64,000 nucleotides of DNA, from the NCBI RefSeq assembly GCF_900176565.1, contig NZ_FXEH01000005.1, positions 645,384 to 709,383 of the forward strand. The letters are read 5' to 3'. A program made the translations under genes and the position numbers. Source of the stretch: Thalassobacillus devorans. GTDB lineage: Bacteria; Bacillota; Bacilli; Bacillales; Halobacillaceae. The notes below the pieces were generated by a model. It did not search any database. It saw only the letters and a program-made list of their open reading frames with translations, and was not told the origin of the DNA. Shown piece by piece: positions 16,567-38,264 of this stretch (positions are counted from its first letter, which is position 1; each line of letters starts with the position of its first letter).

Positions 16567-16567
16567 T

Positions 16568-16602
16568 AAAAAAAGAGACGGGACTTTTGGCCCTCGTCTC
16601 TT
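16568..16602 (-). terminator. Terminator after amidase gene
   Basis: AAGAGACG (from 16573) pairs with CGTCTCTT (ending 16602), followed by TTTTTTTATT on the minus strand. Confidence 0.8.
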
Positions 16603-16619
16603 CATGGTAGATTCGCTGG

Positions 16620-19160: not shown

Positions 19161-19403
19161 TTTAGTTTCACCTCCTTTATTCAATTGTTAAATATATCGG
19201 TATTTTCCAATATTTGTACATAAGACTAAAGTATTGTTTTAACTATTTTCTAGTGAATATGTATTATAAATCACCTTTTGAGGGTATAAATAATTACTTC
19301 ATCCCTTAATAGTTATAAAATTCTACGCTTCTACTACCCAGAAAATAAATCGTGATAGCGAAGGTTACTAATACACGAAAAAAATATAAAAGGAGATACA
19401 CCA

Positions 19404-20399
19404 ATGCAGATTTGTTATATGCGTATTTTCAAGAAACCTCCAAAATTTGCAAGGCTATTATCAAAAACAAGTAAGTATTACAATATAGAAATCGTTTATG
19501 CTCACCCTGAAGATGTAAATATTGAACAGGAAGTCATTCACGGCCAAGTATTGGTCGATAATGAATGGGTTGAGAAAGATGTCCCCATTCCACCCTATAT
19601 TGATTTGAATACGTATTGTTACCGCTACAAAGAGGAAATGAAATTTTTGAAAGAGAGAAGTCATTTGTCTACCAATGGCATGTATGGTGGAAAAGAAAAA
19701 GTATATCGCCTGTTAGAAGAAGATGGAGAATTCGCCGACTTGCTTATACCCTCACGGCGTGCAGGGAGTTTTGAGGAGTTTGCCCCTTTCATTCATGAAC
19801 ACCAATCCATCATCCTAAAGCCTAGAAATGGCCATAAGGGTCAAGGTATTTATTTAATAGAGAAAGTCGGCCAGGACTACATCTGGTATCACGGCAATGA
19901 AGAAAAAACAATGTCTGTGGGTGAATTAAAGACATTTATAGAGGAAATGGATGATAAATATCTATGGCAAAAATATGTAAAGTCTACCACCCCTAAAGGG
20001 GAACCTTTCGATACCAGATTACGCTTAGAGAAAAACGGCAAGGGTAATTGGGAAGTCACGACCTACCTGGTCCGGATAGGTGCTCATCAAAAAGTTGTCG
20101 CCAATGTCGCCCAGGGGGGCTGCGTCAGTAAGCTGCAGCCTTACCTGAAAGCAAACTTTGATAACTGGGAAGAAGTAAGTGAGAAAATTAAAACCATAGG
20201 AAAGAAACTCCCTTATAAAATCGAAGAGTTGTCTAATAAAAGAAATATTGCGATGGGGATTGATTTAGGCATCGAACAATCAGGTGAAGTCTATTTATTT
20301 GAAATCAACTCATCTCCCGGAACCGAATTCGGAGAAAGCGAACTCGCAAACATCAAGCCCGATTATTACAACTATATATTGAAACAACTTCAAAAATAA
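19404..20399 (+). CDS. YheC/YheD-type ATP-grasp protein, tail-less, 331 aa
   Basis: ATP-grasp fold of the same family as 7932-9113: LKPRNGHKGQGIYLI for ATP binding, EPFDTRLRLEKN, NVAQGGCVS and FEINSSPGTEF for metal binding. AAAAGGAG precedes ATG 19404. It lacks the coiled coil and SWKxTxPLR tail of its relatives and ends soon after the catalytic core. It lies on the plus strand, convergent with the long minus-strand polymer operon. Ligase activity is likely since the motifs are intact; substrate unknown. Confidence 0.8.
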   Translation: MQICYMRIFKKPPKFARLLSKTSKYYNIEIVYAHPEDVNIEQEVIHGQVLVDNEWVEKDVPIPPYIDLNTYCYRYKEEMKFLKERSHLSTNGMYGGKEKVYRLLEEDGEFADLLIPSRRAGSFEEFAPFIHEHQSIILKPRNGHKGQGIYLIEKVGQDYIWYHGNEEKTMSVGELKTFIEEMDDKYLWQKYVKSTTPKGEPFDTRLRLEKNGKGNWEVTTYLVRIGAHQKVVANVAQGGCVSKLQPYLKANFDNWEEVSEKIKTIGKKLPYKIEELSNKRNIAMGIDLGIEQSGEVYLFEINSSPGTEFGESELANIKPDYYNYILKQLQK

Positions 20400-20403
20400 G
20401 AAA

Positions 20404-20436
20404 AAGGCAGGTTAACATTAGTTGTTAACCTGCCTT
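20404..20436. terminator. Bidirectional terminator at the end of the polymer operon
   Basis: A perfect 13-bp stem AAGGCAGGTTAAC with its complement (20424-20436) and a 7-nt loop, between convergent ATP-grasp genes. A-runs lie on the left and T-rich sequence on the right. Confidence 0.85.
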
Positions 20437-20445
20437 ACGTTTGAA

Positions 20446-22005
20446 TTACTTTTTAATTCCTTTTCTGATTGCACGCAATGGTTTTGTTACTTTCCAGGAA
20501 AAGCTGTTTTCTAAATACTCGTTGGCATTTTCATATTTTTCCTTCTCTTTCTTAAGCTTGTCCACTTGAGACTTCAGTTTCTTCACGTCACTACGTAATG
20601 ACTCGTTTTTTGATTCCAGGTTTCTGATAGTGGATGCGACTTCTCTTTTTTTCAGGTTCCCTTTCAGGACCTTTGTTTCTAACACATGCTTGTAGTATCC
20701 AGCTCGTAAATAGGCGGACTCTGCTTTTAGTTTTCTTGCAGCTGGTGCTGAGTTTGCTTCAAACAAGTAAAGGTCACCTTTTTTATCAATCCCTACGTCG
20801 AAACCCAGGGTCAACAGCTCCTGCTGACGGATTTCTTCTAACTTATAAGGAAGCGTCATGGCCAGCTCAGTCAACTTGGCATCAATTTCTTCCCATTGAT
20901 CAGGGAAGTTAGCCTTTAGGAAAGGAACAGGGTCTGCTACTCCCCCTCCCTGTCTTACATTTGATATGACTTTCTGAGCAATGCCGATTCTTATATAATT
21001 ACGGGCAATTTCCCATTTTCCTTCCCCGTTTTTTTCCACATGTACACGACAATCAAATGGGTCACCCTGTAATGTACGGGAAGAGATATATTTTTGAACG
21101 ACATATCCTTTACCTTTGATTGATTCCTCGTAAAACCGCTCAAAATTCGATTCAGACAAGACTTCTTCTTCCGTATTATGGCCTATATGGTACTTATCGC
21201 CATCCTTACGCAGGAAATAAATCCCCTCTCCGCCTCTGCCATATTCCGGCTTCATTACGATGGAGGAATGTTCTTTGATAATATCTTTCAATTCGCTCAT
21301 ATCTTGTGGCATATAAGTAGGGATCGGCAAGTGGCTGAAGTTAGGATCGTCCTTCAATGCACTCTCCAGCTTCGCTTTCGACACACGATTCAGACCATTA
21401 TCCGATAAGATGCTGCGATCACGCAGGTAGCTTGTCACCTCTTCAAATTTAAACACAAACGGAGAAATATCAATAAAAGGAGGGATGTCTGTATTGACTC
21501 GTACCCACTCGCCATCCACAAGTTTCTTCCCTTTGATTATGTTCTTTTCCATATCAACATCTCTTGGACGGAAGTAAATCACTTCCATTCCATAATGGTC
21601 ACAGACCATAGCAACCATTTTTGCAATGAAAGGGGGCTGAATAAAGTTTCTTAAAAAGCCGACCTGAATATTGCTGTCAGTATTATCAGCAACGGGACCT
21701 TTCTTTTGGCTTTGTTGCGATTTAGCCGTCTTTTTTATGATGAAGCCTTCCTTCACTGATTTCGGATAGGCTTCCTCTTTGATCCCTTCAACCTCCGCTT
21801 TCGATGGGCCTTCGTTTAATCGGTTTTTGAATTCTTCCAGATCTTTGTCTGTGCCAGCTGCTATCACTAGCACTCTGCCACTCTTTAAATTTTTTACATA
21901 GCCGTCGATATCAAGGTTCAACGCTTGCTCTTTCACCCATTTACGGTAACCGACCTTTTGTACCTTTCCACTAACATAAAATTTTTTCGCCCTTTTTTCA
22001 CTCAT
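20446..22005 (-). CDS. Acylphosphatase/YheC-type ATP-grasp fusion with coiled-coil tail, 519 aa
   Basis: Residues of about 7-95 form an acylphosphatase domain (FYVSGKVQKVGYRKW, DGYVKN) with both catalytic residues in place, Arg21 and Asn39. Residues of about 112-400 are a YheC/D-type ATP-grasp domain (MKPEYGRGGEGIYFL, DPFDCRVHVEKN, FEANSAPA). A long coiled coil follows, ending in SWKVTKPLR (about 503-511) and a basic tip. ATP-grasp enzymes work through acyl-phosphates and acylphosphatases hydrolyse them, so the fusion could proofread or regulate ligation; that is inference. Last gene of the polymer operon. GAGGTG precedes ATG 22005 by 11 bp. Confidence 0.82.
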   Translation of the reverse strand: MSEKRAKKFYVSGKVQKVGYRKWVKEQALNLDIDGYVKNLKSGRVLVIAAGTDKDLEEFKNRLNEGPSKAEVEGIKEEAYPKSVKEGFIIKKTAKSQQSQKKGPVADNTDSNIQVGFLRNFIQPPFIAKMVAMVCDHYGMEVIYFRPRDVDMEKNIIKGKKLVDGEWVRVNTDIPPFIDISPFVFKFEEVTSYLRDRSILSDNGLNRVSKAKLESALKDDPNFSHLPIPTYMPQDMSELKDIIKEHSSIVMKPEYGRGGEGIYFLRKDGDKYHIGHNTEEEVLSESNFERFYEESIKGKGYVVQKYISSRTLQGDPFDCRVHVEKNGEGKWEIARNYIRIGIAQKVISNVRQGGGVADPVPFLKANFPDQWEEIDAKLTELAMTLPYKLEEIRQQELLTLGFDVGIDKKGDLYLFEANSAPAARKLKAESAYLRAGYYKHVLETKVLKGNLKKREVASTIRNLESKNESLRSDVKKLKSQVDKLKKEKEKYENANEYLENSFSWKVTKPLRAIRKGIKK

Positions 22006-22052
22006 GGCTCAGTTGCCACCTCGATTCATTTTTACAACGCCAGGATTGATAA

Positions 22053-22078
22053 CCCCGTGTAACCAAAGGTACACGGGG
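22053..22078. other. Intra-operon hairpin without T-run
   Basis: CCCCGTGTAACC pairs with GGTACACGGGG across an AAA loop, with one bulged A. It fills the gap between two ATP-grasp genes. Lacking a T-run, it is more likely an RNA-processing or stability element than a terminator. Confidence 0.5.
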
Positions 22079-22091
22079 GGATATTACCCTA

Positions 22092-23735
22092 CTAAGCGTC
22101 CTTTTTTACCAATGACTTTACTTTCCTCAATGGTTCTGTAGCTTTCCAGGATGTGCTGTTAAGGATATGTTGGTTGTCTTTTTCAATCCTGTTTTTCTGT
22201 TTCGTCAGATATTTCAAATCTTTATCCATCTTTCGCAAAGCGTGCTGTACAGATTTCAGGTTGTTGGTATTGTATCGTTCGGCAATTTCAAAGCCGACTG
22301 TAACGGGGTCCTCATGGTTTTCTTCCACTACTTTATTGACCTTGGAATTTTGTGGATATTGCGTGATCAGCTCTTTGAATTCAGTAAGTGCTGACCTATC
22401 TGTACCAGCAACTACGATTTCAATTTCATCAAACACCATATTTTTTACATATCCATGGAGGTTACGATCCATAGCTTGTTTCTTTAACCAGCGATGGTAG
22501 CTTTGCCGTTGCACCGTGCCGTACACTATGAACTTCTTGGCATACAATTTTCCCATCGGAGCAGGGGCCACTTCTACTTCGAGCGCTGCCCTGTTCTCTA
22601 ATGGTTCAAGAATATTAATTAAATCAAAGTAGACTTTGGATTTTCTGGTGTCCATTCCCTTTGTCTCTGGAAAATAATAATCAATGATAGCTGCAGGGAT
22701 ATCACGCGCTTTTCCTTTCAATGGGAACAGCGCCCCGCCAATTTGGGCAGTCGGGTTCAATTCAATGACAACACCCGCGACGTCCATCGACCGGTTTTCA
22801 TTAGCAATGATATCGACACCGCCATGATCCAGACCAGGAACAGCTTTGAGGGCATCAATCGCAATTTGTTTCATTTCCTTCGACATCGTATCGGTGACAT
22901 CGATCGGATCGCCACCGGATGAGACGTTCGTTTTCTGCCTCAAGTAAATTTGTTCCCCTTTTTTCGGAACACTGTCAAGCGTGTAGCCGGCGGATTGAAT
23001 GTACTCCAGGATTTCTGTATCCATGTGGATCAGGCAGCTGTTCAACCTGGCATTCTTCTTCCGCTCCCTGTTCTTCAAATCGATCAGTTCTTCGATGGTA
23101 TGTTCCCCATCACCAACAATGTTAGCTGGCTTACGATTATAAGCAGCAATCACTTCGTCTCCTACCACGTAGACTCGATATTCTTCTCCTTCGACATGCT
23201 GTTCAACAATTACCTCGTCATACCCTAGCTCGTGGCGTACATACTGCATCGCTTTCAAAAATTCTTCATCACTATTGATATTGGTGACAACCCCGTTCCC
23301 AAGGCTGGCGTTCGTCGGCTTCAACACAAGGGGGTAATCAATCGTTTTACTATAGGCGATGATTTCTTCATCGGTTGCATCCGGATCAAAGCCTTTCCCT
23401 TTAGGTACAGGCACGCCAGCTTTATCAAGGACGACCTTGGTATCATCTTTCTCCGATGCTACTTCTACTGCCTCATTAGCAACAATATCTCCCCGTGTTC
23501 GGAAGAAATAATGGGTTCTTTCTTCAGAACTGAGGGAAAAAAGCCTTCCCGGCGGATTGACACCGAAGATAATCATATCTTGAAAGTGCTCCGAGTCTTT
23601 TGTGTACCACTTCAGCTTCAGGCCTCTTCGCCATCCTTCCAAGGCTACTGCAAAAGCATCCAACCTGGTTTTTCTCGCATTTTTGACAATATCATTGGTA
23701 AGTTGGGGAAGACTGATTCCCTGCTGCTCACTCAT
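22092..23735 (-). CDS. Cyanophycin-synthetase-like ATP-grasp/degenerate acylphosphatase fusion, 547 aa
   Basis: After an N-terminal region of about 90 residues comes an ATP-grasp domain of the CphA/GshF type: LKPTNASLGNGVV, VEQHVEGEEYRVYVVG, the signature NIVGDGEHTIEELI, and the metal-binding IELNPTAQIGG. Family members join amino acids to carboxylates. Residues of about 399-485 are an acylphosphatase-like domain (FIVYGTVQRQSYHRW) in which the catalytic Arg is His414, while Asn432 is kept. A coiled coil and SWKATEPLR (about 529-537) close the protein. AGGAGG precedes ATG 23735. The next gene upstream is a close paralogue. Substrate unknown; a polymer-linked amino acid is inferred. Confidence 0.82.
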   Translation of the reverse strand: MSEQQGISLPQLTNDIVKNARKTRLDAFAVALEGWRRGLKLKWYTKDSEHFQDMIIFGVNPPGRLFSLSSEERTHYFFRTRGDIVANEAVEVASEKDDTKVVLDKAGVPVPKGKGFDPDATDEEIIAYSKTIDYPLVLKPTNASLGNGVVTNINSDEEFLKAMQYVRHELGYDEVIVEQHVEGEEYRVYVVGDEVIAAYNRKPANIVGDGEHTIEELIDLKNRERKKNARLNSCLIHMDTEILEYIQSAGYTLDSVPKKGEQIYLRQKTNVSSGGDPIDVTDTMSKEMKQIAIDALKAVPGLDHGGVDIIANENRSMDVAGVVIELNPTAQIGGALFPLKGKARDIPAAIIDYYFPETKGMDTRKSKVYFDLINILEPLENRAALEVEVAPAPMGKLYAKKFIVYGTVQRQSYHRWLKKQAMDRNLHGYVKNMVFDEIEIVVAGTDRSALTEFKELITQYPQNSKVNKVVEENHEDPVTVGFEIAERYNTNNLKSVQHALRKMDKDLKYLTKQKNRIEKDNQHILNSTSWKATEPLRKVKSLVKKDA

Positions 23736-23776
23736 TTTCTATTCCTCCTAAAACCGTACCTTACAGATGGTTGCTG

Positions 23777-25402
23777 TTATGATTTGATCTTCTTGACGAC
23801 TGCTCCTGCCAACCGGATCGGTTTTGTTGCTTTCCAGGAAAGGCTCTTATGGAATTTCCTTCGCTGGAGTTCTGCTTTCTTCATGGCGTGTTCTGTCACT
23901 TCCAGCTCCTGTCTGAATGCCTTCAGTTCTTCAATTTGTGTTTTCAGATCGGCTTTTATTTCAAACCCTACTTTGATCGGCTCATAAAAAGGCTCTTCCT
24001 GAATTTCAATCACCTGGGCTCTCTCTTCGTCTTCCCAGATTCCATTTTTGAAGTCATCTACCATTTCAGGATCTGTTCCTGCCACCACGATTTCGATATC
24101 TCCATCGTCCCGATTCATAACAAACCCATGCAATTCGCGTTCAAAGGCTTGCTTCCGTAATCCGCGGTGGTAGCCAATATCCTGCACATCCCCACTGACG
24201 ATATACTTCTTCGCAAAAATTTCTTCCTTAGGAGATGGGGTGACCGTAACTGCAACTGCGTCTTGTGCTTGTAGTGGATCGAGAACATCCTGAAAATCGA
24301 AATAAGTCTTGGTCTTGTTCAGTTCTATACCCTTCGTTTCCGGAAAATAGTAGTCCATAATTGCAGCTGGGATATCCCTCGGTTTACCCTTCATTGGATA
24401 AAGAAGCCCTCCAATTTGGGCAGTAGGGTTCAATTCGATGACATATCCAGTATTCTCGTCACCTTCAGGCTTAATGAGATCGACTGCTCCATGAACCAGT
24501 CCAGGAACAGCCTTGATTGCATTGACCGCAATTGCTTTGATATCCGGGTGCAGTTCATCTAACACATCGACCGGATCTCCACCAAGAGATATGTTGCTTT
24601 TATCACTCAGAAAAATTTGCTCACCTTTTTCAGGGACCATGTCCGCGGAATATCCTTTGCGGCCCATATATTCGATAACATCCTGGTTCATTTCAATCGG
24701 ACAGCTGACAAGCCTCGGATTGAGGCCGCGCTCTTCATTTTTCATCTCGATCAGTGCCTTGATATCATTGACACCATCACCCATTACATTAGGCGGGATA
24801 CGATTCATGGCACCTACTACTTCACCCCCTACCACGTATAGCCGATATTCCGGTCCGGGAATGTAATGTTCGACGATAACGTCTGGATAGTCGAGCTCAT
24901 TTCGAACATACTCCAGGGAGTAGCGCAGTTCTCCTTCGCTGGTGATATTGGAAATGACACCACGTCCGAAGCTGCCATCCGTCGGTTTTAAGACAACAGG
25001 ATAGCCGATTTTATTGGCAAACGCTATGATTTTTTCGTTATCTACGTCTTCCGTAAACTGCTTTCCTTCAGGTACGGGGACACCATACTCTTTCAGTACC
25101 TGTTTTGTCTTTTCTTTATCCCTGCCGATATCCACTGCTTCATTGGAAACAAGGTCTCCTCGAGTTCGGAAGAAGTAATGTGTTTTCTCACCGGAACTCA
25201 AGGAAAACAGTTGTCCGGGCTTGTCAACAAACCACGTCCTCATTTCCTTGAACTTCTCTGAATCTTTGACATGCCATCTTAATTTAAGTCCTCTCCGCCA
25301 ACCTTCCAGCGATACGGCATAAGCATCCAACAGGTTGCCGTGAGCAGCTGCTACGATTTGACCGGATAGGTGCGGCAGCCATTCTGTGTTGTTCTCGTCC
25401 AT
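23777..25402 (-). CDS. Second cyanophycin-synthetase-like ATP-grasp/degenerate acylphosphatase fusion, 541 aa
   Basis: Paralogue of 22092-23735 with the same domain order. ATP-grasp marks are LKPTDGSFGRGVI, VEHYIPGPEYRLYVVG, NVMGDGVNDIKALI and IELNPTAQIGG. The acylphosphatase-like domain (YIVSGDVQDIGYHRG) has His412 in place of the catalytic Arg and keeps Asn430. The tail is a coiled coil and SWKATKPIR (about 522-530) with a lysine-rich end. A longer frame begins at 25429, but AGGAGG sits 7 bp before ATG 25402, so that start is used. Two adjacent ligases of one type suggest two different acceptors or residues, or an alternating product; this is inference. Confidence 0.82.
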   Translation of the reverse strand: MDENNTEWLPHLSGQIVAAAHGNLLDAYAVSLEGWRRGLKLRWHVKDSEKFKEMRTWFVDKPGQLFSLSSGEKTHYFFRTRGDLVSNEAVDIGRDKEKTKQVLKEYGVPVPEGKQFTEDVDNEKIIAFANKIGYPVVLKPTDGSFGRGVISNITSEGELRYSLEYVRNELDYPDVIVEHYIPGPEYRLYVVGGEVVGAMNRIPPNVMGDGVNDIKALIEMKNEERGLNPRLVSCPIEMNQDVIEYMGRKGYSADMVPEKGEQIFLSDKSNISLGGDPVDVLDELHPDIKAIAVNAIKAVPGLVHGAVDLIKPEGDENTGYVIELNPTAQIGGLLYPMKGKPRDIPAAIMDYYFPETKGIELNKTKTYFDFQDVLDPLQAQDAVAVTVTPSPKEEIFAKKYIVSGDVQDIGYHRGLRKQAFERELHGFVMNRDDGDIEIVVAGTDPEMVDDFKNGIWEDEERAQVIEIQEEPFYEPIKVGFEIKADLKTQIEELKAFRQELEVTEHAMKKAELQRRKFHKSLSWKATKPIRLAGAVVKKIKS

Positions 25403-25432
25403 CAGATTTCCTCCTAAAACTCTATACATTCT

Positions 25433-26857
25433 TTAAGGGGTCAAATTTTCCTTCAACTTTTCATAGTCACTGAACTTTTTACCGGCAACGAGATCTTCCG
25501 TTAGGCGGGATTCCGCTTCTAAGAACAAATCTCCCAGCCACCTGTCTGTTCGCTCGTCAAATTCATCGTAGTTGCCTGGTTTCGGTGTGAATTCCCCAAA
25601 TACCAGCCCTTCTTCCGATTTCAGAAAATCGATTCGGATGAAAGGCGCTGGAATCTCTGTGCTGATTTCTGCAGCAAGCTCTATTTCAGCTACTGTTACG
25701 CCTTTTCCTTTATAAGGATCGTCCTCATATTTGCCTGTCTTCACTCTCTCGCCATCTGCTGTCCACCAGCAATATTTCAATTCGGGGTAGCGGATAATTT
25801 CCAGGATAAGTCCGACCTTGCCATAAAAGCAATAGAACTTGATGTCGCTGGCTGGAGTCTTCTTCTCTTTATTTTCTAAAATGAGCTCTTCCATGTACCA
25901 GCTGTCTGCTTCTACCATGCCGGACTGGAGGTCCTTTTGCATCGTTTCTTTCAACTTGCCCCAGCGTTCGAGTTTTTTCAATCGCTTCACATCGATTATA
26001 TCATCCAATGCATATACCAGATATACACCGCGTGAACCGGCACCATTGGCAGGTTTGATAACGATTCCGGTTTTTTCAGGGATATCTTTCAATCGATACG
26101 TCTCTTCTGTCGTCCATGGAACACGCACATTCATTTGCTTCATAAATTGATAAGCTGCCTGCTTCTCGTCGAGCAGCATCTCCGGGAGCGCCCCGGTCAG
26201 CTGGAGTTTCCTCATTCGCATGTTAAGGCTTGCCCGGTAGGATGCAGCAGGTGTCAACGGTATTGGGTTATCTGTGAGTCCTTCCCGGATAAGAAACTCT
26301 GGTATTTCTTCGACTTGAAAGCCCTCTAGTATTTCTCGGTAAGCCAGCTTCCTGTATTCCGGTTTATCATTCATCCACGTTCTTGCGGCATATCGCAGCG
26401 CTTCATTATAGTTTGTCTCATGCTGGCGTTTTTGTTGCACCAGTTTTGTAATGTATTCCAGGAGTTTTCCTTCCTGTTTCTGCTCTTTAACCACTTTGAG
26501 GGTTTCATGGCTTTTCATGTAGCGATCATCGAGCATAACTTCCGCCAGCTGTTCTTTCGTTGCTTCTAACTCTCTTTGGAGTACTTGTTTTGTTTCCTGC
26601 TCTATCTCAAGGAGATGCTTGTCTGCTTCCTCTTTGTTTCCTGTTATCCTGCTGACTAGAGCTTTTATTTTACGAAGCGGAGCTGTATACTTCCAGGCTT
26701 TGCTTTGCTGCAATTGTTTAATTTCCTTATGGTTTTGCTTAAGCTCTTGTTCTTTTTTTGCAACCTCTGCTTCAACTTGAATCATGTGTTTAAGGTAAGC
26801 CTGTTCCTCACCCTGAGGGGAAGTTTGTTGTTTTTCTTGATCATGATTGTCGGTCAT
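25433..26857 (-). CDS. TupA-like ATP-grasp protein (teichuronopeptide-type), 474 aa
   Basis: N-terminal coiled coil, then AWKYTAPLR (residues 54-62) and a second helical stretch, then an ATP-grasp domain from about residue 120. Key stretches are IVIKPANGAGSRGVYLV, DIKFYCFYGKVGLILE, FIRIDFLKSEEGLVFGEFT and KPGNYDEFD. The order fits the TupA-like family named for teichuronopeptide biosynthesis in alkaliphilic Bacillus, where a polyglutamate/polyglucuronate wall polymer is made. The gene overlaps the next upstream gene by 17 bp, a sign of coupling. GGGGAGATG precedes ATG 26857. Assignment to the family is good; the product here is inferred. Confidence 0.78.
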   Translation of the reverse strand: MTDNHDQEKQQTSPQGEEQAYLKHMIQVEAEVAKKEQELKQNHKEIKQLQQSKAWKYTAPLRKIKALVSRITGNKEEADKHLLEIEQETKQVLQRELEATKEQLAEVMLDDRYMKSHETLKVVKEQKQEGKLLEYITKLVQQKRQHETNYNEALRYAARTWMNDKPEYRKLAYREILEGFQVEEIPEFLIREGLTDNPIPLTPAASYRASLNMRMRKLQLTGALPEMLLDEKQAAYQFMKQMNVRVPWTTEETYRLKDIPEKTGIVIKPANGAGSRGVYLVYALDDIIDVKRLKKLERWGKLKETMQKDLQSGMVEADSWYMEELILENKEKKTPASDIKFYCFYGKVGLILEIIRYPELKYCWWTADGERVKTGKYEDDPYKGKGVTVAEIELAAEISTEIPAPFIRIDFLKSEEGLVFGEFTPKPGNYDEFDERTDRWLGDLFLEAESRLTEDLVAGKKFSDYEKLKENLTP

Positions 26858-28103: not shown

Positions 28104-30045
28104 TGCTGGTCCGCCTCTGGTCGAGCAGCTCTCTGGCAGGTTGAATTTCTCCGAGCAACTCTTTTACATCATCGGAAAATACACTGTTTTCACTTGCATA
28201 CCAGCTTGCATTTTCACCGAAGTATAAGTTCAGGTGAAGCTTTGCCTGCTTTAGTTTTTCCTCACCTGCTTCTGACACATGGTGATCCGCAACGGCTACT
28301 TTTATATCTTTTGCATCTACTTCTGGGATATATTTTTGCTTATCTTCCAGCACACTTGAGTCTAAAATATACATTTTATTCGTTACAATTTTTTCACCAT
28401 AGACAAGCATGTGTACTTTTTCACCATCAAGCAGGTCTCTGACTTTTTCGTGGATTGGTTTCGTTATGCTGAGATCGTACCCATACATCTGCACTAATCC
28501 AATACGCTTATCGGCGCGTGCAACCAATTCTTTGATTAGCTTCAGCTTCTTTTCCGGCATGACCCGGAAATCGGCTGCTATGACTTTCTCGAAATGACGT
28601 TTGCCGTCCTGCTTCTCCTCACGCTCCGGCCACATCGGTTCCGGGACCGGGAACGGGCGTGTCATTTGGGGATACGGGTAATACAAGCTGTCTGCCTGAC
28701 GGTGATGATGCTCCAGGCTTTCGACGTATTCTTTTCTTACTCCCATGAAAAACCCGTTATAACCAAAAGCAGAACTTCCAGTAAGAGAGGAAACAGACTG
28801 CCTTGGCAAGGATAATGGGCCGGTTTCAAGGTCAACGTACTTCTCCTTGCCAAAAGTTTTAACCAGTCTCCGCTTGAACTCTCCATCTGCAGCAAATCTC
28901 ACACTATCCCAATAACCGACTTTCTCCATCACTGGTTCACGCCGGAACATGATGGAAGACATGTTCGGAAAAATATATTTACCTGGAGTCCCGCGGCGGT
29001 ACAATTTCAAGTCTTCGGTCAACCGGGCGTGGCCAGACGTGTTCGCGATTATGTCGGGATTCTCGATCAAATGGCTGACCTGCTTCTCGATCTTCTGCTC
29101 ATGAGACCAGTCATCTGAATCATTAATCGTAACAAACTCTCCCTTAGCAGCTTGGAGAGCGATATTGCGTGCTACATAAGGTCCACTGTTCTGAGGAGTA
29201 GAAAGCAGTTTTACCCGCTTGTCTTTAGCGACGTACTCCTCGACCACTTTACGGGTATCATCGGGACTGCAATCCTCTACAACTAGCAGCTCGACATTTT
29301 GCCACGTTTGCGAAAGAATCGATTCGATGGCTGTCTGAATACCATCCTCCGCTTTGAAAGCTGGAAGAATGACGGAGATCAACGGACCATCGGTGATTTT
29401 CTTCTCACTTGCTATGGTTGTAAGGTCGTCATACTCGGGTTTCTGTTTAGAAGCAAACGAAATAGGCTGCAGCTGATAGGCTTCCATCGCCTTATTCATC
29501 CACTTCAGCCTATCCTCTATGTTATCTTCTAAATTTGCCATTGCTAAATAAAGGTCAGGATGCTTCTGGTTTGCCAGCATTTCTTTAATCGTTATTTGGC
29601 CTTGATTCTGATTTCCCAATATGTCATGGCATTCTGCCTTAATAATCGCAATTCTTCTAAGGTGATCGGGGTTGGATTCCATACGAGCCGCAGCGGGAAG
29701 ATATTCCAACGCTTTTTCTGCTCCTTCTTTGGAGTACTTATTCGCATTCCAGAGCACTAATTCCCAAGCGACAAGCCGTTTGATATCGTCACCTTTCACT
29801 TCCCTGTAGAAACTTTCTAATTCTTCCAAAGCACGTTCGGTGAAACCAAGGTTATACAGGTGGTGCTTCAACTGCCGTAATTTCTTTCTTTGGAGAAACT
29901 TCTTGCCATGAAGAATTTCTTTCACTCGCTGCTTTTGTTCCTGTGAAAGAAGGTCACCAAGCTTTTTCCGCTGCTTTTCGTTTAATACTGTGTACAACAG
30001 CCAGTCCATCGGGCCGGCTACCACTTTTTTCAGAAGACGTAACAT
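28096..30045 (-). CDS. TPR-containing family 2 glycosyltransferase, 649 aa
   Basis: Helical repeat-like N-terminus (about 1-210), then a GT-A type family 2 transferase (about 216-430) with ISVILPAFKAEDGIQTAI, VVEDCSPDDT, the metal-binding NDSDDW and a W-D acceptor region (VGYWDSVRFAADGEFKRR). A C-terminal region of about 180 residues contains DFRVMPEKK. It would transfer a sugar from a nucleotide donor during polymer synthesis on the cytoplasmic face. GGTGGTGA precedes ATG 30045. It is flanked by the tandem ABC ATPase upstream and the GT2-less relative downstream. Donor and linkage cannot be predicted. Confidence 0.85.
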   Translation of the reverse strand: MLRLLKKVVAGPMDWLLYTVLNEKQRKKLGDLLSQEQKQRVKEILHGKKFLQRKKLRQLKHHLYNLGFTERALEELESFYREVKGDDIKRLVAWELVLWNANKYSKEGAEKALEYLPAAARMESNPDHLRRIAIIKAECHDILGNQNQGQITIKEMLANQKHPDLYLAMANLEDNIEDRLKWMNKAMEAYQLQPISFASKQKPEYDDLTTIASEKKITDGPLISVILPAFKAEDGIQTAIESILSQTWQNVELLVVEDCSPDDTRKVVEEYVAKDKRVKLLSTPQNSGPYVARNIALQAAKGEFVTINDSDDWSHEQKIEKQVSHLIENPDIIANTSGHARLTEDLKLYRRGTPGKYIFPNMSSIMFRREPVMEKVGYWDSVRFAADGEFKRRLVKTFGKEKYVDLETGPLSLPRQSVSSLTGSSAFGYNGFFMGVRKEYVESLEHHHRQADSLYYPYPQMTRPFPVPEPMWPEREEKQDGKRHFEKVIAADFRVMPEKKLKLIKELVARADKRIGLVQMYGYDLSITKPIHEKVRDLLDGEKVHMLVYGEKIVTNKMYILDSSVLEDKQKYIPEVDAKDIKVAVADHHVSEAGEEKLKQAKLHLNLYFGENASWYASENSVFSDDVKELLGEIQPARELLDQRRTSNG

Positions 30046-30069
30046 ATCGAGTCACCACCTGATCCCTGT

Positions 30070-31770
30070 TTATGATTTTTGATCTGCTTCTGTAGTGTTC
30101 GTCGTTTTATCTTTCGGCTGGTCGTTCGTTTTATTGACCGTTTTCGTCGTATCTTTTGCCTGCTTCGATGTTTTGACGCTTTTTCCATTCTTAGCATTAG
30201 CAGCCTTGTTACCTTTGACGTTCCTTCTCTTCTTACGTACTTTCTTTTGGACGCCTTGGGATTCGCGGTATTTAGCCACTGCTTCTTCGGCACTGCCGTC
30301 GAATTTCACCTGTCCTTTTTCCATCCAGATTCCTCTCGTACAAATCTGTTCAATGAACGTCAAGCTGTGCGAAACGATGATGACGGCCTTGGCACGTTCC
30401 ATCATTTCCTGGATCCGTTCGCTCGCTTTCTGTTTGAATGCCATATCACCTGTCGACAATGCTTCGTCAATAATGAAAATATCCGGCTTTAAAATCGCTG
30501 CGATGCTGAAGCCGAGCCGGGCTTTCATACCACTCGACAGGTCTTTGACCGGCTTGTGGATTTTCTTTCCTAACCCTGAAAATTCCACGATTTCGTCATA
30601 TTTCTCATCGACACGTTTTTTCGGAATGCCAAGCAGCATAGCGTTCAAATAGATATTATCGGCACCGCTTAAATGCGCGTTGAATCCTGTACCGTAGCCA
30701 AGTAAAGCTGAAGTCTCCCCATGAAGTTCGATTGAACCTTCATCTGGTGCGAGAATTTTCGTCAGAACTTTGCATAAGGTACTCTTCCCTGCTCCATTAT
30801 GACCGATGATTCCCACGACTTCTCCTTCTTTGATTTCAAAGCTTACATTTTTTAATGCCCAGAAGTCTTTATTACTTAGCTTGAACCGTACGCCGAGGTT
30901 TTCTGCCTTAATAATCGCTTTATCCGTAACATCCGTTTCCGTCTTTTCCAGCTGCAGGTTACGTTTTCTTCTTGGTGGTCGCGGGGGTACAGAAGCTTTA
31001 TAGTTTTCTACTACTTCCGCTGGATCACCGATTTCCCGTACTTCTCCGCCATCGATCCACATAAGCCGGTCACAGTTGCGCCGGGCATAGTTAAGACTAT
31101 GGGTAACGATGATAACCATCTTCGCCTGCTGTACGAGCTCCTTCATCTTAGCAGCCGCTTTTTTACTGAATTTCGCATCTCCGGTATTCAATGCTTCATC
31201 AAGAATAAGTATCTCCGGCTGCAGGTGGGCAGCAACACTGAATCCTAGTCTCGCCTTCATTCCACTGGAGTAATATTTCATCGGCTGATAGAAAAATTCG
31301 CCAAGATCTGAGAATTCATGGATGTCACTAATATATTTCTCAATCATTTTTTTATCAATGCCGAGCATCATCCCATTCAAGAAGACGTTCTCTTCGCCGG
31401 TCAGCTCTTTATTAAAGCCCATGCCAAATGAGAACAAGGCGGTGACCTTGCCGTCTACCTCCATTTCCCCTTTGTCTTCCTGAAGGATGCCCGCAATAAT
31501 TTTACTAAGCGTGGTTTTGCCCGCGCCGTTCGATCCGATAATGCCAAGGATTTCCCCCTGCACACCTTCAAAATCGATATCCGTCAGCGGCCAGACCAAC
31601 TTATCTTTTTTATTGCTTCGTCCTTCTTTGAAAAAACGGAGCACTCGGGATTTATAGTCATCCTTGTAGTTTCCGCCAAAGAAAGAAACTCCGACATTTT
31701 TTGCCTTTATAACTTTTTCCTGCGTGTTGTCTTTATTGATAGACAATTGAAAAACCCTCTTTTTATTCAA
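30070..31770 (-). CDS. tagH: Tandem TagH/Wzt-type ABC transporter ATPase (two ABC domains), 566 aa
   Basis: Two complete nucleotide-binding domains in one chain. The first has Walker A GSNGAGKTT (about 79-87), signature SSGMKARLGFS and LILDEALNTGD. The second has GHNGAGKST, LSSGMKARLGFS and FIIDEALSTGD. A basic, proline-containing linker (VPPRPPRRKR) joins them, and a lysine-rich low-complexity tail of about 65 residues ends the protein. TagH and Wzt ATPases usually have one ABC domain and act as dimers with the permease to export lipid-linked polymers. The fusion would supply both ATPase halves at once. Start ATG 31770 has a weak site; TTG 31746 behind AAGAGGG is an alternative. Confidence 0.88.
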   Translation of the reverse strand: MNKKRVFQLSINKDNTQEKVIKAKNVGVSFFGGNYKDDYKSRVLRFFKEGRSNKKDKLVWPLTDIDFEGVQGEILGIIGSNGAGKTTLSKIIAGILQEDKGEMEVDGKVTALFSFGMGFNKELTGEENVFLNGMMLGIDKKMIEKYISDIHEFSDLGEFFYQPMKYYSSGMKARLGFSVAAHLQPEILILDEALNTGDAKFSKKAAAKMKELVQQAKMVIIVTHSLNYARRNCDRLMWIDGGEVREIGDPAEVVENYKASVPPRPPRRKRNLQLEKTETDVTDKAIIKAENLGVRFKLSNKDFWALKNVSFEIKEGEVVGIIGHNGAGKSTLCKVLTKILAPDEGSIELHGETSALLGYGTGFNAHLSGADNIYLNAMLLGIPKKRVDEKYDEIVEFSGLGKKIHKPVKDLSSGMKARLGFSIAAILKPDIFIIDEALSTGDMAFKQKASERIQEMMERAKAVIIVSHSLTFIEQICTRGIWMEKGQVKFDGSAEEAVAKYRESQGVQKKVRKKRRNVKGNKAANAKNGKSVKTSKQAKDTTKTVNKTNDQPKDKTTNTTEADQKS

Positions 31771-31809
31771 GTTTGCATTCCTGTTTAAACACCAGAAAAG
31801 CGAATCGTC

Positions 31810-32586
31810 TTACAATGCCTTGATGATTTTATGTTCGTTATTGCTGTAGTAGCGGACCATGAAGATAATGGCAGCTACCGACAGTACGAAAATAACCAGC
31901 AGTCCCGTGAATGCAGGATTGTTTTGATGCATCAAGACAGCACGATAGGACTCGACAATGATGGCGATGGGATTGAAATCCACTGCCCAGCTGTACTCCG
32001 GCGGCAGTCTTCCACCCTCCCAAATAATCGGGGAGGCATAGAAAAATATCCGAATAACGTAGGATAACAGATTATCAATATCCCGAACGAATACAGTCAT
32101 ATAGCCAAGAATCATTCCAACTCCTAAAAGGAAAACCGTCTGTACCAGAACAATCAATGGCAGATAAACGACCTGCCAGCCTGGCATAACACCATAGATA
32201 GCAAGGAAAGCAGCTACAACTACTAACCCGAAAGCAAAGTTGAACAGCTGCGTGAGCGTAAATGACAATGGAAACAGCGACTTAGGTAAATAGACTTGAT
32301 TAATGATAGAACTGTAGCGTGTGATCGATTTTGCCGAAGTATTGATCGTGGCACTTATCGCACGCCATGCTACCAGCCCGATCACAAGGAACAACGGGTA
32401 ATTCTCCCCGCCTCTTCCGAGAATAACAACTACTAGGAAGTAGTAAACGAGTACGTTTAATAGCGGATCAAGCAGCCACCAGAAATAGCCGAGATAGCTG
32501 TTCCGATGCTCTGCTTTCAACCCGGATTTCACAAGATATATCAATAAATCCTTACGTTTAAGCATTTCCTGTAAATATGTTTTCAT
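31810..32586 (-). CDS. tagG: TagG-type ABC-2 polymer export permease, 258 aa
   Basis: ABC-2 family permease with about six membrane helices. The N-terminal amphipathic stretch and SYLGYFWWLLDPLLNVLVYY are typical of TagG/Wzm. Pairs with the tandem ATPase encoded next to flip a lipid-linked wall polymer across the membrane. A GTG at 32601 extends the frame by five codons; ATG 32586 gives the usual TagG start (MKTYLQEMLKRKDLL) and is chosen, though its ribosome site is weak. The gap to the ATPase gene is 39 bp. Confidence 0.88.
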   Translation of the reverse strand: MKTYLQEMLKRKDLLIYLVKSGLKAEHRNSYLGYFWWLLDPLLNVLVYYFLVVVILGRGGENYPLFLVIGLVAWRAISATINTSAKSITRYSSIINQVYLPKSLFPLSFTLTQLFNFAFGLVVVAAFLAIYGVMPGWQVVYLPLIVLVQTVFLLGVGMILGYMTVFVRDIDNLLSYVIRIFFYASPIIWEGGRLPPEYSWAVDFNPIAIIVESYRAVLMHQNNPAFTGLLVIFVLSVAAIIFMVRYYSNNEHKIIKAL

Positions 32587-32640
32587 AGCTTCTCTTGACA
32601 CCGTCCAATTTCTTCACAGCCGGAAGGTTATCCAGCCAAA

Positions 32641-33420
32641 TTATTGTGAGATTCGATATTTAATAACATCTCTAATAGATAATATCGCATAATGAACAAA
32701 ATACCAGATGCTTTTCGGAAAACTTTGCTTTTCGACTTCCCGGAAGACGCGCCAATTCTGTTTGGCTGCCTTCCACTTGTTGCTGGAAATCGAATTATCG
32801 ACGACACGATATTTCGATAACACTTCCGGTATTCCATAAGCCAGAAACCCACGCCTAGTCAAATCCAGCCAAAGAGCATAATCCTGACGCGTCCGGATGT
32901 TGACCATTTCGACGCTGCCGGTTCTTTTCGTATCGAGCATTACGGTGAGACAGCCGATGACACAGCGCTTCATGAGCGCATCGTAGTGAACTGTCGCCGG
33001 TGCTTCTGTAGTCGCATTTGTCTCTGTACCGTCCTCCAGCATGCGGCGATACTTTGTGAATGAAAAAGCGACACCTGTTTCCTGCATAAACTTCAACTGA
33101 CGCTCCAGCTTTTCCGGAAGCCATAGATCATCACTATCTAAAAACGCAAGATAACGACCGCCTGCCTCACGGATCGCCGTGTTACGTGCCACCGCCGATC
33201 CTGAATTTTCTTCCAGCACAACCAGACGGATACGCGGGTCTTTTCTTCGGTATTCTTCAACAATTTCGACCGTCCGATCCTGTGACCGATCATCGACAAT
33301 GACCATTTCCCAGTCCGTGAACGTCTGATCGATAACCGATTGGATTGTCTCTCCGATAAAACGCTCTGCATTATAAGCAGGCGTAATGACGGAAACTAAT
33401 GGAGTCTGTTCGTTTTGCAT
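32641..33420 (-). CDS. Family 2 glycosyltransferase, 259 aa
   Basis: GT-A fold: VSVITPAYNAERFIGETI at the N-terminus, VDDRSQDRT for nucleotide binding, NTAIREAGGRYLAFLDSDDLW with the DxD metal motif, and RTRQDYALWLDLTRRG in the acceptor region, a pattern common in capsule and teichoic-acid transferases. Cytoplasmic and likely membrane-associated. The start is 7 bp from the stop of the upstream glycosyltransferase gene, so they share a transcript. The sugar is not predictable. Confidence 0.88.
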   Translation of the reverse strand: MQNEQTPLVSVITPAYNAERFIGETIQSVIDQTFTDWEMVIVDDRSQDRTVEIVEEYRRKDPRIRLVVLEENSGSAVARNTAIREAGGRYLAFLDSDDLWLPEKLERQLKFMQETGVAFSFTKYRRMLEDGTETNATTEAPATVHYDALMKRCVIGCLTVMLDTKRTGSVEMVNIRTRQDYALWLDLTRRGFLAYGIPEVLSKYRVVDNSISSNKWKAAKQNWRVFREVEKQSFPKSIWYFVHYAILSIRDVIKYRISQ

Positions 33421-33427
33421 TGTTATC

Positions 33428-34573
33428 CTAACCTTCCATCTTAGCCGGCTGTTCGCCTAACAGGCGCTGGTACCAGCTGATCAGTTTCTGTTCTTGTGTC
33501 TGCCAGCCCAATTCCTCCATGACAGCCTTCTTGCCATTCTCGCCCATTTGCTTCGCTTCTTCCGGGTGGGCACGCAGGTAGTCGAGAGCATTGCGAATAG
33601 CCTCGTCATCATATGGATCCACCGCAATGCCACATTCATGCTTCTCGATGAACTCCTTCCATACCGGGAAGTCAGAGCAGATGACAGGAAGTCTTGCATT
33701 CATATACTCAAAGAACTTGGTCAGTTCTTTTTTCATGTAATGTTCCGTAGGTGGAAACAGGGCGACCCCTGCCAGCCAGTTGCGACTGAGGTAGCGGTCT
33801 TCTATCACTTCTTTTTCGATGAAGCGATCGATTCCTTCAATCACCAGTTGATCTTTGCGATCGCCTGCCACTTCATACATTTTCTCGGCTAATGGTTTTG
33901 GGCATTTACCGACAAAGTGAACGGATAAAGATTCATCAATTACCGGCAGTTTGGCATGAAATAAAGCTCCACGTACCTCTGTGACATTACCGGTGTAGAT
34001 CACTTTGTCTTCTGCTTCCCCTTCACGTTTATGGTTGATGAACTTCTCGTTAACGGTCGGGTAGTTCAGGATACACGTCCCGGTTGGATAAATATCTTTA
34101 TAATATTTTTCCGCAAGGCACAGCTCCATCTTACGGGTAAAAATCTTTTCCATCACCTTATAAACAGCAGCCACTGCTTTCTTTACCGCCGGTTTCATAT
34201 AATCCTTCTGGAGGATGCTCGTAATATAGTCCTCATGGATGTCGTAGATGACGATGTTGTCTTTTTTCTTCAACAGCCAGCCGACCGGCAGCAATTCAGG
34301 ATCATGGAAGTGATAAACATCCGCGTCCATTTTTTTAGCTTTCCGGTAAACCTGCCAGGTTCCGAAAAGCATTCGTTTCAGCTTACTATTATATTTTTTC
34401 ACGGGAATGTGGCGGATCGGTTTGTCTGCCAGTCCACCATTATCATCTTTCTGTGCGATCAAAGTAACGTCATACCCTGCACGCTGGAGGGACTTGCATT
34501 CCTTATGAAAAATCCTTGGATCATATGGGTGGTGGACCGTAGTAAGGTGCACCACCTGTTTTGGATTCGCCAT
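33428..34573 (-). CDS. Family 4-type glycosyltransferase, 381 aa
   Basis: GT-B fold. N-terminal VVHLTTVHHPYDPRIFHKEC resembles EpsD/WbuB-like transferases, and the C-terminal half holds FFEYMNARLPVICSDFPVWKEF with CGIAVDPYDDEAI for donor binding. The chosen start is the second of two close ATG codons because AGAGG lies 9 bp before it. It follows another GT4 gene after a 27-bp gap. Role in polymer repeat assembly is inferred from position. Confidence 0.86.
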   Translation of the reverse strand: MANPKQVVHLTTVHHPYDPRIFHKECKSLQRAGYDVTLIAQKDDNGGLADKPIRHIPVKKYNSKLKRMLFGTWQVYRKAKKMDADVYHFHDPELLPVGWLLKKKDNIVIYDIHEDYITSILQKDYMKPAVKKAVAAVYKVMEKIFTRKMELCLAEKYYKDIYPTGTCILNYPTVNEKFINHKREGEAEDKVIYTGNVTEVRGALFHAKLPVIDESLSVHFVGKCPKPLAEKMYEVAGDRKDQLVIEGIDRFIEKEVIEDRYLSRNWLAGVALFPPTEHYMKKELTKFFEYMNARLPVICSDFPVWKEFIEKHECGIAVDPYDDEAIRNALDYLRAHPEEAKQMGENGKKAVMEELGWQTQEQKLISWYQRLLGEQPAKMEG

Positions 34574-34600
34574 GCTTCTCATCCTCTGTTGGTTCGTTTC

Positions 34601-35719
34601 CTATTGTTCTAGTGTTTCGATGAACATTGTTTCGTATTCTTCGGCAATTTTTCTCGCATGAAAATCATTCGTGCGTTCGATGCCTTTTCTGACTATTTCA
34701 GCGCGCTGGTTTTCTTCCAATATAAGCAATTCGTAGATTTTCTTTGCCATATCTGCTTCGTCCCCAACCTTACACATTGCTCCGAATTCTCCATTGTTCA
34801 GTACCTCGACCGCTCCAGGGCGGCAGCTTGTAGAAACAATTGGCGTCCCTGTCGCTAGAGCTTCCGCCAACACGTGGCCGAATCCTTCTCTTTTAGAAGA
34901 AAGAACAAAGGCATCGGCATGATGGAAATAAAGATAAGGGTTGCGCTGGAAACCAAGGAAGTGAACTTTATCAGCGACTCCAAGGGTGTTAGCAAGCTGC
35001 TTCAAGTCTTGCTCTAGTTCTCCTTCGCCCAGGATGACCAGTCTGGCTGCAATACGCTCGTTCACCTGCTTGAAAGCTCGTAAAAGCGTCCGATGATCCT
35101 TATCATTGACCATTCTGCCAGCAGTAATGAGCACCTTGTCATCTCCTGCAAAAATAGGCTGGTGTTCTTCTGGCAAAGCTTCTTTTTTCATCATGGTACG
35201 GATGGTATCAATATCGACAGGATTGTAAATGACGGTTATTTTGTCAGGCTGTACATTGTACCGTTTCACGATATTCTCCTTTACCCCATGTGACAAGGCG
35301 ATAACCCTGCCTACACGGCGGTAAAGTAACCCATAGAGCTTCAGTTTAAAATCCGCCTTAAAACTTCCGCCAAGATAAGCTGCTTCCCGTACAACATTTT
35401 TCGCCTTCGTCCCTGAAATGATCGTCGCGAGAATTGCAATCGTATTATAATTTGGAATCGTGCTGAACACGATATCTGCCTTTTCTTTGCGGATCACTTT
35501 CGCTAGCGGAATGATAGCGGAACGCAGCCGCTTCGTATCCAGCTTAATGAACGTAACGTCTGGATCCAGGTAAGACTCATAGCTTCCATTATAATCCAAA
35601 GTGACAAGAATCGGGGTGAATTTTTCCCGGTCCATGTTGTTGATGATATTCAAAATTGTGCGCGCTGCACCGCCCGCACCTAGTTGATAGATAAAAAACA
35701 GAACTTTCTTCTTTTTCAT
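34601..35719 (-). CDS. Family 4 glycosyltransferase, 372 aa
   Basis: GT-B fold with N-terminal FFIYQLGAGGAARTILNI, a middle ITAGRMVNDKDHRTLLRAF, and the donor-site pattern LSSKREGFGHVLAEALATGTPIVS. It is the first gene of the run from here to 20446, after a gap of about 250 bp that holds the inside-out palindrome, so a promoter may lie in that gap. AAAGG is 12 bp before ATG 35719. Confidence 0.88.
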   Translation of the reverse strand: MKKKKVLFFIYQLGAGGAARTILNIINNMDREKFTPILVTLDYNGSYESYLDPDVTFIKLDTKRLRSAIIPLAKVIRKEKADIVFSTIPNYNTIAILATIISGTKAKNVVREAAYLGGSFKADFKLKLYGLLYRRVGRVIALSHGVKENIVKRYNVQPDKITVIYNPVDIDTIRTMMKKEALPEEHQPIFAGDDKVLITAGRMVNDKDHRTLLRAFKQVNERIAARLVILGEGELEQDLKQLANTLGVADKVHFLGFQRNPYLYFHHADAFVLSSKREGFGHVLAEALATGTPIVSTSCRPGAVEVLNNGEFGAMCKVGDEADMAKKIYELLILEENQRAEIVRKGIERTNDFHARKIAEEYETMFIETLEQ

Positions 35720-38179: not shown

Positions 38180-38264
38180 GGTTACTATCCCCTTTTTCAA
38201 TCACGATAGTTTATATGCTAGTAGCTATTCTATCATAAACCATCCCCATTGAATAAAACATCAA

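Follow-up and report, generated by a model that had tools for sequence, protein, structure and literature searches.

The subject of this work is an operon of Thalassobacillus devorans in which genes for glycosyltransferases and a TagGH-type exporter run into a row of ATP-grasp ligases, three of them fused to an acylphosphatase-type domain. It lies in a stretch of 64,000 nucleotides, here called the window (assembly GCF_900176565.1, contig NZ_FXEH01000005.1, positions 645,384 to 709,383 of the forward strand), which belongs to a genome of 4.07 Mb in six contigs. We propose that the operon probably makes an exported wall polymer, namely an acidic glycan that carries amide-linked amino acids or short peptides and is a relative of teichuronopeptide. 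What we observed is the gene content of the operon, its conservation in other genomes, the linkage of its genes and the residue pattern of its ligases. The genes of the operon, followed by two further ligase genes of the window, are these:

34601–35719, minus strand: GT4-type glycosyltransferase, GT4a (Pfam PF00534, 128.7 bits; PF13439)
33428–34582, minus strand: GT4-type glycosyltransferase, GT4b (Pfam PF00534, 41.3 bits; PF13439)
32641–33420, minus strand: GT2-type glycosyltransferase (Pfam PF00535, 140.7 bits)
31810–32601, minus strand: TagG-like ABC permease (Pfam PF01061, 48.3 bits)
30070–31770, minus strand: TagH-like ABC ATPase (Pfam PF00005 in two stretches; passes the NCBIfam TagH model NF010066 with 381 bits, cut-off 320)
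28096–30045, minus strand: GT2 domain with long flanks, the "TPR-glycosyltransferase" (Pfam PF00535, 113.5 bits, residues 224–348)
26841–28103, minus strand: core-less relative of the 28096–30045 protein, without a match to any glycosyltransferase family in Pfam
25433–26857, minus strand: TupA-like ATP-grasp ligase (Pfam PF14305, 251 bits, cut-off 25, E 1.4e-74; WKYTAPLR at residue 55)
23777–25429, minus strand: CphF1, a CphA/GshF-type ATP-grasp domain with an acylphosphatase-like domain, catalytic Arg replaced by His (Pfam, NCBIfam, residues; PF00708, 68.6 bits, cut-off 22.5)
22092–23735, minus strand: CphF2, a second such fusion, Arg replaced by His (Pfam, alignment, model, nearest solved folds; PF00708, 63.3 bits, same cut-off)
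20446–22005, minus strand: AcpYheC, an acylphosphatase domain with Arg and Asn kept (PF00708, 81.4 bits) and a YheC-type ATP-grasp domain (PF14398, 174.7 bits)
19404–20399, plus strand: YheC-type ATP-grasp protein, convergent with the operon and without the common tail (Pfam PF14398, 178 bits; motif scan)
7932–9113, minus strand: YheC-type ATP-grasp protein with a WRVTAPLR tail (Pfam PF14398, 190.9 bits; motif scan)

From 35719 to 20446, all of the genes lie on the minus strand, and by their coordinates they are separated by short gaps or overlap; 3 base pairs (bp) lie between the end of TupA and the start of CphF1, and the core-less gene overlaps both of its neighbors. An earlier, sequence-only reading of the window had described the glycosyltransferases, the TagGH-like exporter, the TPR-glycosyltransferase with its core-less relative, TupA, the fusions, and the YheC genes outside the run, and each of these was found as an open reading frame (ORF) in its place and with its named domains in the ORF list and Pfam. 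The word "TPR" is kept as that reading's label only, since no Pfam match to TPR was found in the GT2 proteins of the operon.

To what extent is this arrangement kept in other genomes? Species genomes were scanned with four fusion sequences, and an exact short peptide was required; the 48 loci of other genomes in which CphF relatives (relatives of CphF1 and CphF2) were found are therefore a lower bound. The loci are titled Virgibacillus, Oceanobacillus, Pontibacillus, Lentibacillus, Ornithinibacillus, Evansella, Halalkalibacter, Alkalibacillus, Gracilibacillus, Shouchella, Salinicoccus, Lacicoccus and others, and most of the genera carrying the locus are presumably halophilic or alkaliphilic. 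When ORFs were labeled by their best match among the window proteins, the usual order was GT4, GT2, TagG, TagH, two GT2 proteins, TupA, CphF1, CphF2 and more ligases, with a GT4b relative upstream of GT2 in several loci that have sufficient flank. TupA is present in 45 of the 48 loci, and in 43 a CphF follows it within 200 bp. At least one long GT2 protein is found in 43 loci, and TagG or TagH matches, counted without a score floor, in 41. The seven loci without them (L023, L034, L035, L050, L053, L055 and L057) are all cut at the left, where the stretch starts within the operon; the matches are weak or distant in L027 (54 bits) and L052 (32 and 188 bits) and lie downstream in L033. Between two and seven CphF matches per locus (plus-strand matches of more than 150 bits, fragments included) were counted in 46 loci, and the other two loci are truncated. 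These results place the fusions within a wall-polymer export operon, as the sequence-only reading had claimed; it had named as fatal to itself a finding of the fusions mostly apart from glycosyltransferase and TagGH genes, and the comparison of neighborhoods found them together. The recurrence of CphF relatives in 48 loci, 45 of them with TupA, is far beyond chance, and we rejected the idea that the fusions are stray genes or genes in decay.

Furthermore, the association holds in a draw of 397 genomes from the order, in which a fusion genome was defined by a match at E < 1e-100 in a frame of fewer than 600 codons; at most three candidates were scored in each genome, so that copy numbers are lower bounds. 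Any fusion match was found in 58 genomes; 21 of these have the fusion, and the other 37 have only frames of CphA length. TupA was found in 20 of the 397 genomes, all of them among the 21 fusion genomes, and by match coordinates 19 of the 20 have it no more than 130 bp from a fusion, both genes being at contig ends in the twentieth. These are related species with a common history, and so the genomes should not be counted as independent trials. In the genus of the window itself, only two of five genomes carry the fusion, and T. devorans CECT 7046 has a very similar locus (CphF2 96%) whose neighborhood order is largely kept. The full-length acylphosphatase–YheC fusion of T. devorans was found in no other genus among the 397 genomes (search at E ≤ 1e-50, best three candidates per genome); the matches in eight other genomes begin at query residues 93–114, in the YheC half. 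A scan of viral contigs with CphF2 alone gave four pattern matches and no relative.

Several loci show variants of their own. TupA-related proteins of 717–744 amino acids (aa) beyond the usual TupA occur in Natribacillus and Shouchella (L057, 3816–5969 and 7965–10199; L045, 17048–19270). In Oceanobacillus oncorhynchi, four minus-strand ORFs of 341, 271, 167 and 124 aa, with AcpYheC as the best window match, adjoin the operon (L047, 11.9–16.3 kb), and the TupA of Virgibacillus halodenitrificans stands as two ORFs of 212 and 271 aa in the assembly (L013, 6.8–8.3 kb). The core-less protein of the window aligns with both ends of six relatives of 690–827 aa, skipping 274–374 residues, and the GT2 start motif lies inside the skipped part in four of the six; the second long GT2 protein of Thalassobacillus has lost its GT2 core and kept its ends, and the same 420-aa form is found in the T. 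devorans locus compared. In the TagH-like protein, a single chain holds a pair of ABC ATPase domains, of which the first fits a galactan-exporter model and the second fits TagH, and relatives of ~500–700 aa in other loci suggest that the double form is kept.

The two fusions next to TupA are distinct and conserved enzymes. In a tree of ATP-grasp domains (62 rows built by a quick method, with a sample of F1- and F2-position rows), all 22 F1-position rows fall on one side of a branch (support 100), and 20 of 22 F2-position rows group together (99), the two that do not being those of the divergent loci L050 and L051. The later CphF copies vary in number and diverge more than F1 and F2, and the slot after CphF2, which in Thalassobacillus holds AcpYheC, holds further CphF in many relatives. 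We counted residues in 153 CphF copies from 44 loci, namely 43 of the 48 named loci and the window, all with TupA and whole CphF, after frames below 450 aa had been dropped. K139, R187, D308, E325 and N327 (CphF2 numbering) are invariant in the 153 copies and E178 is changed once, to Q; we take these six to be ATP-grasp site residues by role. R201 is present in 88 of 88 F1/F2 copies and 57 of 65 later copies. TupA–CphF1–CphF2 is most likely the conserved core of the locus, with the accessory ligases as its variable part. The several distinct ligation steps that the earlier reading had inferred fit the number of CphF matches per locus and the two conserved orthologue groups.

The AlphaFold2 model of CphF2, built from 68 sequences, has a mean predicted local distance difference test (pLDDT) score of 89.5 and a predicted template modeling score (pTM) of 0.82. 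It consists of an N-terminal domain, the ATP-grasp domain, an acylphosphatase-like alpha/beta domain at ~398–485, a long helix at 493–525 and a short helical tail. Its nearest solved folds by Foldseek are CphA2, CphA1 and GshF, each covering part of the chain only, with query-normalized template modeling (TM) scores of at most 0.53 (GshF 3ln6, 0.48, root-mean-square deviation 2.9). The best sequence-profile matches of CphF, CphA1, CphA2 and GshF, agree with the fold. The model of AcpYheC (pLDDT 82.2, pTM 0.64), in which residues 88–111 are poorly modeled, is similar in a general way to ATP-grasp ligases, glutathione synthetase among them. For TupA, no relative was found by sequence among solved chains at E ≤ 0.01.

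Could the acylphosphatase domains of these ligases still be acylphosphatases? In the bovine enzyme, Arg23 is the main residue that binds phosphate and Asn41 the one that places the water, according to the available part of PMC8147672. PF00708 is matched by 66 of the 68 CphF relatives scanned, and three of the four acylphosphatase domains in the whole T. devorans genome are those of the three operon fusions. At the Arg place, CphF1 and CphF2 have His in 79 of 88 copies (F1 40/44, F2 39/44) and Arg in four, and the Asn is kept in 24 of 44 F1 and 27 of 44 F2 copies; the Arg–Asn pair expected of an active acylphosphatase is missing from most copies of CphF1 and CphF2. Three place-2 copies have both residues: one, from L023, is really a later copy because the first copy there is short and the places are shifted by one, and the remaining two belong to L051 and L054. 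Among the later CphF copies, Arg is present in 23 of 65 and Arg with Asn in 18 of 65, the 18 being spread over 17 of the 44 loci, so that most are without the pair. AcpYheC has both equivalents (GKVQKVGYR and YVKN in its sequence).

A tree of the acylphosphatase domains alone (a sample of F1/F2 rows; its ninety columns are few, and many of its forks are open) puts F1 and F2 together on one side of a branch (98/89), and the Arg was, most simply, lost once before they split. The operonic domains stand apart from seven stand-alone domains and one HypF domain (100/99). On the ATP-grasp tree, the letter at the Arg place (H, R or other) changes at least five times in the 62 rows. The domain of AcpYheC lies nearest, by tree path, to CphF domains that keep Arg and Asn, and in a comparison of 172 domains, the best 24 listed matches after the two AcpYheC rows are all CphF, with none of the three stand-alone domains. 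A derivation of the AcpYheC domain from a later CphF is not claimed; the approximately unbiased (AU) test allows its grouping with the stand-alone domains (p 0.424).

Judged by this residue pattern, the acylphosphatase-like domain of CphF1 and CphF2, being without the phosphate-binding Arg, probably binds substrate or partners, and copies that keep Arg and Asn could hydrolyze stalled acyl-phosphates. It is rather unlikely that the CphF1 and CphF2 domains are themselves still hydrolytic, using the His or the neighboring Arg of a His-Arg pair and serving to edit acyl-phosphates or end chains. A Y/F-H-R triplet is indeed frequent (59 of 88 F1/F2 copies), the Asn is kept in 51 of 88, and the full pair survives in AcpYheC and in the 18 later CphF copies; on the other hand, the Asn varies too.

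How might such a set of enzymes work together? It is from the genes that we infer the acceptor, the amino acids, the order in which the steps occur and what the acylphosphatase domain does. The glycosyltransferases would build a lipid-linked glycan in the cytoplasm, and TupA would begin the side chain with an amide bond to a carboxylate of the sugar. The chain would then be lengthened by CphF1 and CphF2, which would convert its free carboxylate to an acyl-phosphate and join more amino acids to it. ATP-grasp enzymes of the CphA/GshF type couple an amino acid to a peptide carboxylate that they have activated, and this chemistry would suit the steps after TupA. Accessory ligases, which are further CphF in many species and AcpYheC in Thalassobacillus, would add species-specific residues, and TagG/TagH would export the product. 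Linked ligases are said to perform successive ligations, with teichuronopeptides among the named products, in the accessible text of PMC4431377. The best support for an amide on a sugar carboxylate comes from outside the locus, namely from Cj1438C of Campylobacter jejuni, whose TupA-like ATP-grasp domain is reported to amidate glucuronate at its C6 carboxylate (PMC11800379, as far as available), and from the tupA gene of Bacillus halodurans (PMC8153356, likewise in part).

The supply of sugar precursors was examined in 12 hand-picked genomes of the 48 loci. In the window, the genes next to the operon on this side are as follows:

35971–37278, minus strand: UDP-glucose 6-dehydrogenase-type protein (Pfam PF03721/PF00984/PF03720)
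37292–38200, minus strand: nucleotidyl transferase, presumably GtaB-like (Pfam PF00483, 116 bits)
38389–39702, plus strand: UDP-N-acetylhexosamine (UDP-HexNAc)-type sugar dehydrogenase, TviB/WecC-like (NCBIfam TviB, 495.5 bits, under the cut-off of 592; TIGR03026 over its cut-off)
39736–40827, minus strand: PF00953 protein (Pfam, 145.8 bits), which we take to be a TagO/WecA-like initiating phosphosugar transferase

At least one PF03721 dehydrogenase is encoded in all 12 genomes. A TviB/WecC-like relative was found in nine (E ≤ 1e-40), ~15 kb or less from the first fusion in seven, and in Evansella clarkii and Gracilibacillus lacisalsi, neither the UDP-glucose dehydrogenase (E ≤ 1e-60) nor the TviB/WecC-like dehydrogenase (E ≤ 1e-40) has a relative. 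The ligase module is thus the constant part, and the uronic acid may differ between species.

Several results weigh against an amide-decorated acidic glycan. A UDP-glucose dehydrogenase relative stands beside the locus in five of the 12 genomes and elsewhere in two, and the other five have none at E ≤ 1e-60; the sugar, and even the acceptor, may differ between species. TupA is not in the stretch examined for three of the 48 loci (L052, L055 and L057). Of these, L052 (Virgibacillus oceani) has full flanks and still lacks TupA, which makes it a genuine exception, and for L057, TupA was seen just upstream on the contig taken as its counterpart in the 397-genome draw. One of the 21 fusion genomes (G121) gave no TupA match at the threshold. 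A PgsB-type polyglutamate ligase scores over the cut-off in two of 14 genomes with the locus (the 12 and two Thalassobacillus). The peptide of the polymer of strain C-125 may also have another source, as the available part of PMC8153356 makes an unclear mention of a polyglutamate-synthesizing gene cluster in C-125. Finally, the locus is known here from its genes, and the chemistry cited comes from other organisms. The earlier description of a peptide- or amino-acid-decorated uronate polymer holds in outline, as a wall-polymer operon with ligation steps, and its glucuronate part is less sure: a UDP-glucose dehydrogenase adjoins the locus in only five of 12 genomes, and a UDP-HexNAc-type dehydrogenase is near it in seven.

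Could the ligases instead make a free-standing poly-amino acid or repetitive peptide, similar to cyanophycin or polyglutamate, with no more than a single attachment to the glycan or none, with the glycosyltransferases and TagGH serving a separate glycan? CphA1 and CphA2, the nearest solved relatives of CphF2, are polymerizing enzymes. In the other 12 of the 14 genomes, PgsB is not over its cut-off (the window's own genome has only an 18.4-bit match, cut-off 222.7), and so the peptide part there would have to come from other ligases such as the TupA/CphF set, a point that speaks for the decorated glycan as well. The Mur-ligase half that CphA1 possesses was, however, not found in CphF by Pfam or NCBIfam, and the two to seven CphF matches that 46 of the 48 loci retain fit a defined sequence better than a homopolymer. 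We therefore consider a free-standing peptide unlikely, even with teichuronopeptide being described as polyglutamate plus polyglucuronate in the accessible text of PMC8153356. It is more improbable still that the ligases modify another wall molecule, such as the peptidoglycan stem or teichoic acid, and share the operon with the exporter for joint regulation only. PG_binding-repeat proteins do adjoin the operon (two with amidase or glucosaminidase domains; relatives in 24 of 48 loci). Against this reading, TupA and CphF remain linked to GT2 proteins and TagGH in many genera and, in the available part of PMC11800379, the TupA-like domain acts on glucuronate in a capsule.

Several ligases of the window also share a tail. 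The motif W[KRQ]x[TSA]xP[LIVMFAY]R occurs in five of 43 window proteins tested, all of them ATP-grasp ligases: TupA (at residue 55), CphF1, CphF2, AcpYheC and the YheC protein at 7932; the sixth ligase, at 19404, is without it. In the 48 loci, it gave 53 matches in 59 CphF1-labeled ORFs, 57 in 119 CphF2-labeled, 11 in 49 TupA-labeled, 2 in 14 AcpYheC-labeled and 3 in 14 YheC8-labeled ORFs, one in 552 unlabeled mechanical ORFs, and none under other labels. In CphF, it lies close to the C-terminal end. Similar tails are, we believe, known in glycosyltransferases, and a literature search with six peptide variants found no published name for the motif. The shared tail may be an anchor to the membrane or to a partner. 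A more elaborate picture, which we regard as speculative and on balance doubtful, is a ligation line at the edge of the membrane. TupA would prime the sugar carboxylate, CphF1 and then CphF2 would add the next two residues, and the fast-changing later ligases would write a species-specific end. Coiled-coil W[K/R]xTxPxR tails would gather the ligases, the inactive acylphosphatase folds would bind and pass on the acyl-phosphorylated chain end, and the intact acylphosphatase of the accessory ligase would clear stalled chains.

A run of PG_binding_1-repeat proteins adjoins the operon at 9295–19184. The protein at 16620–19184 has seven PG_binding_1 stretches and an amidase domain, and that at 12230–16504 has 12 stretches, SH3 and a glucosaminidase domain; both of these large proteins have very acidic N-terminal parts. 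The protein at 9295–10581 has two stretches, and that at 10773–12062 was assigned as a PG_binding_1 protein by eye. With relatives in half of the 48 loci, these proteins might bind the operon's polymer. Two tandem LytR-CpsA-Psr proteins (5528–7885) are candidates for attaching the polymer to peptidoglycan. A NAGPA-family phosphodiester glycosidase (2487–4046) adjoins a Wzz-type protein and an AAA/ParA-type ATPase (638–2081).

The operon, with TupA in 45 of 48 loci, offers a full candidate gene set for teichuronopeptide-like polymers, for which the available part of PMC8153356 names only tupA. The set gives a testable division into core and accessory ligases and shows an odd architecture, an acylphosphatase fold without its key Arg in two conserved ligases. 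Its repeated occurrence among relatives makes the ligase row a good candidate for the pathway still lacking for a wall polymer that is known but poorly understood. What is probably new here is the candidate gene set with its fusion-ligase architecture; TupA and its link to the polymer were already known. A literature search, with most subscription papers outside its reach, found no paper on ATP-grasp/acylphosphatase fusions; they could already be listed in the survey of ATP-grasp amidoligases that Iyer and colleagues published in 2009.

Among known systems, the closest is the teichuronopeptide of Bacillus (Halalkalibacterium) halodurans C-125. In the accessible text of PMC8153356, TupA of B. 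halodurans is tied to a poly-gamma-L-glutamate/polyglucuronate wall polymer, a homologue is reported in Oceanobacillus iheyensis, and alkaliphiles are held to maintain the pH of the cell interior with the help of teichuronopeptide. Strain C-125 is not among the 48 named loci, themselves a lower bound. The likeness lies in a TupA-family ligase in Bacillaceae, present in the window (PF14305, 251 bits versus a cut-off of 25), in the UDP-glucose dehydrogenase that adjoins the operon, and in the several other Oceanobacillus species that carry the operon besides the reported O. iheyensis homologue. On the other hand, the part of PMC8153356 available names only tupA/OB2920 and unnamed "teichuronopeptide synthesizing enzymes", without CphF or acylphosphatase fusions. 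Cj1438C of the C. jejuni capsule is likewise a TupA-type ATP-grasp in a polysaccharide locus, making an amide on glucuronate C6; it differs in being fused to a glycosyltransferase and in serving a capsule with ethanolamine or serinol amides, and the accessible text mentions no CphA-type fusions.

CphA1/CphA2 and GshF share the ATP-grasp type of the fusions by profile and fold. CphF2, however, matches only their ATP-grasp part and has an acylphosphatase-like domain, a long helix and a short tail. We rejected its assignment as a cyanophycin synthetase (230 of 877 and 224.6 of 850 bits in NCBIfam, in the ATP-grasp part only) and as GshF (185.8 of 425 bits in NCBIfam, in the C-terminal part only). 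Acylphosphatases resemble the fusions in the family match of most CphF relatives (66 of 68) and differ in that CphF1 and CphF2 have the catalytic Arg replaced, are fused to a ligase, and belong to operonic domains that are separate in the tree. Finally, the teichuronic acid (tua) operon of Bacillus subtilis contains a UDP-glucose dehydrogenase and glycosyltransferases, as does the window. It differs in that the 28096–30045 protein scores only 107 bits, against the 400 that the TuaG model requires, and in that the window adds a TagGH-type exporter and the ligases.

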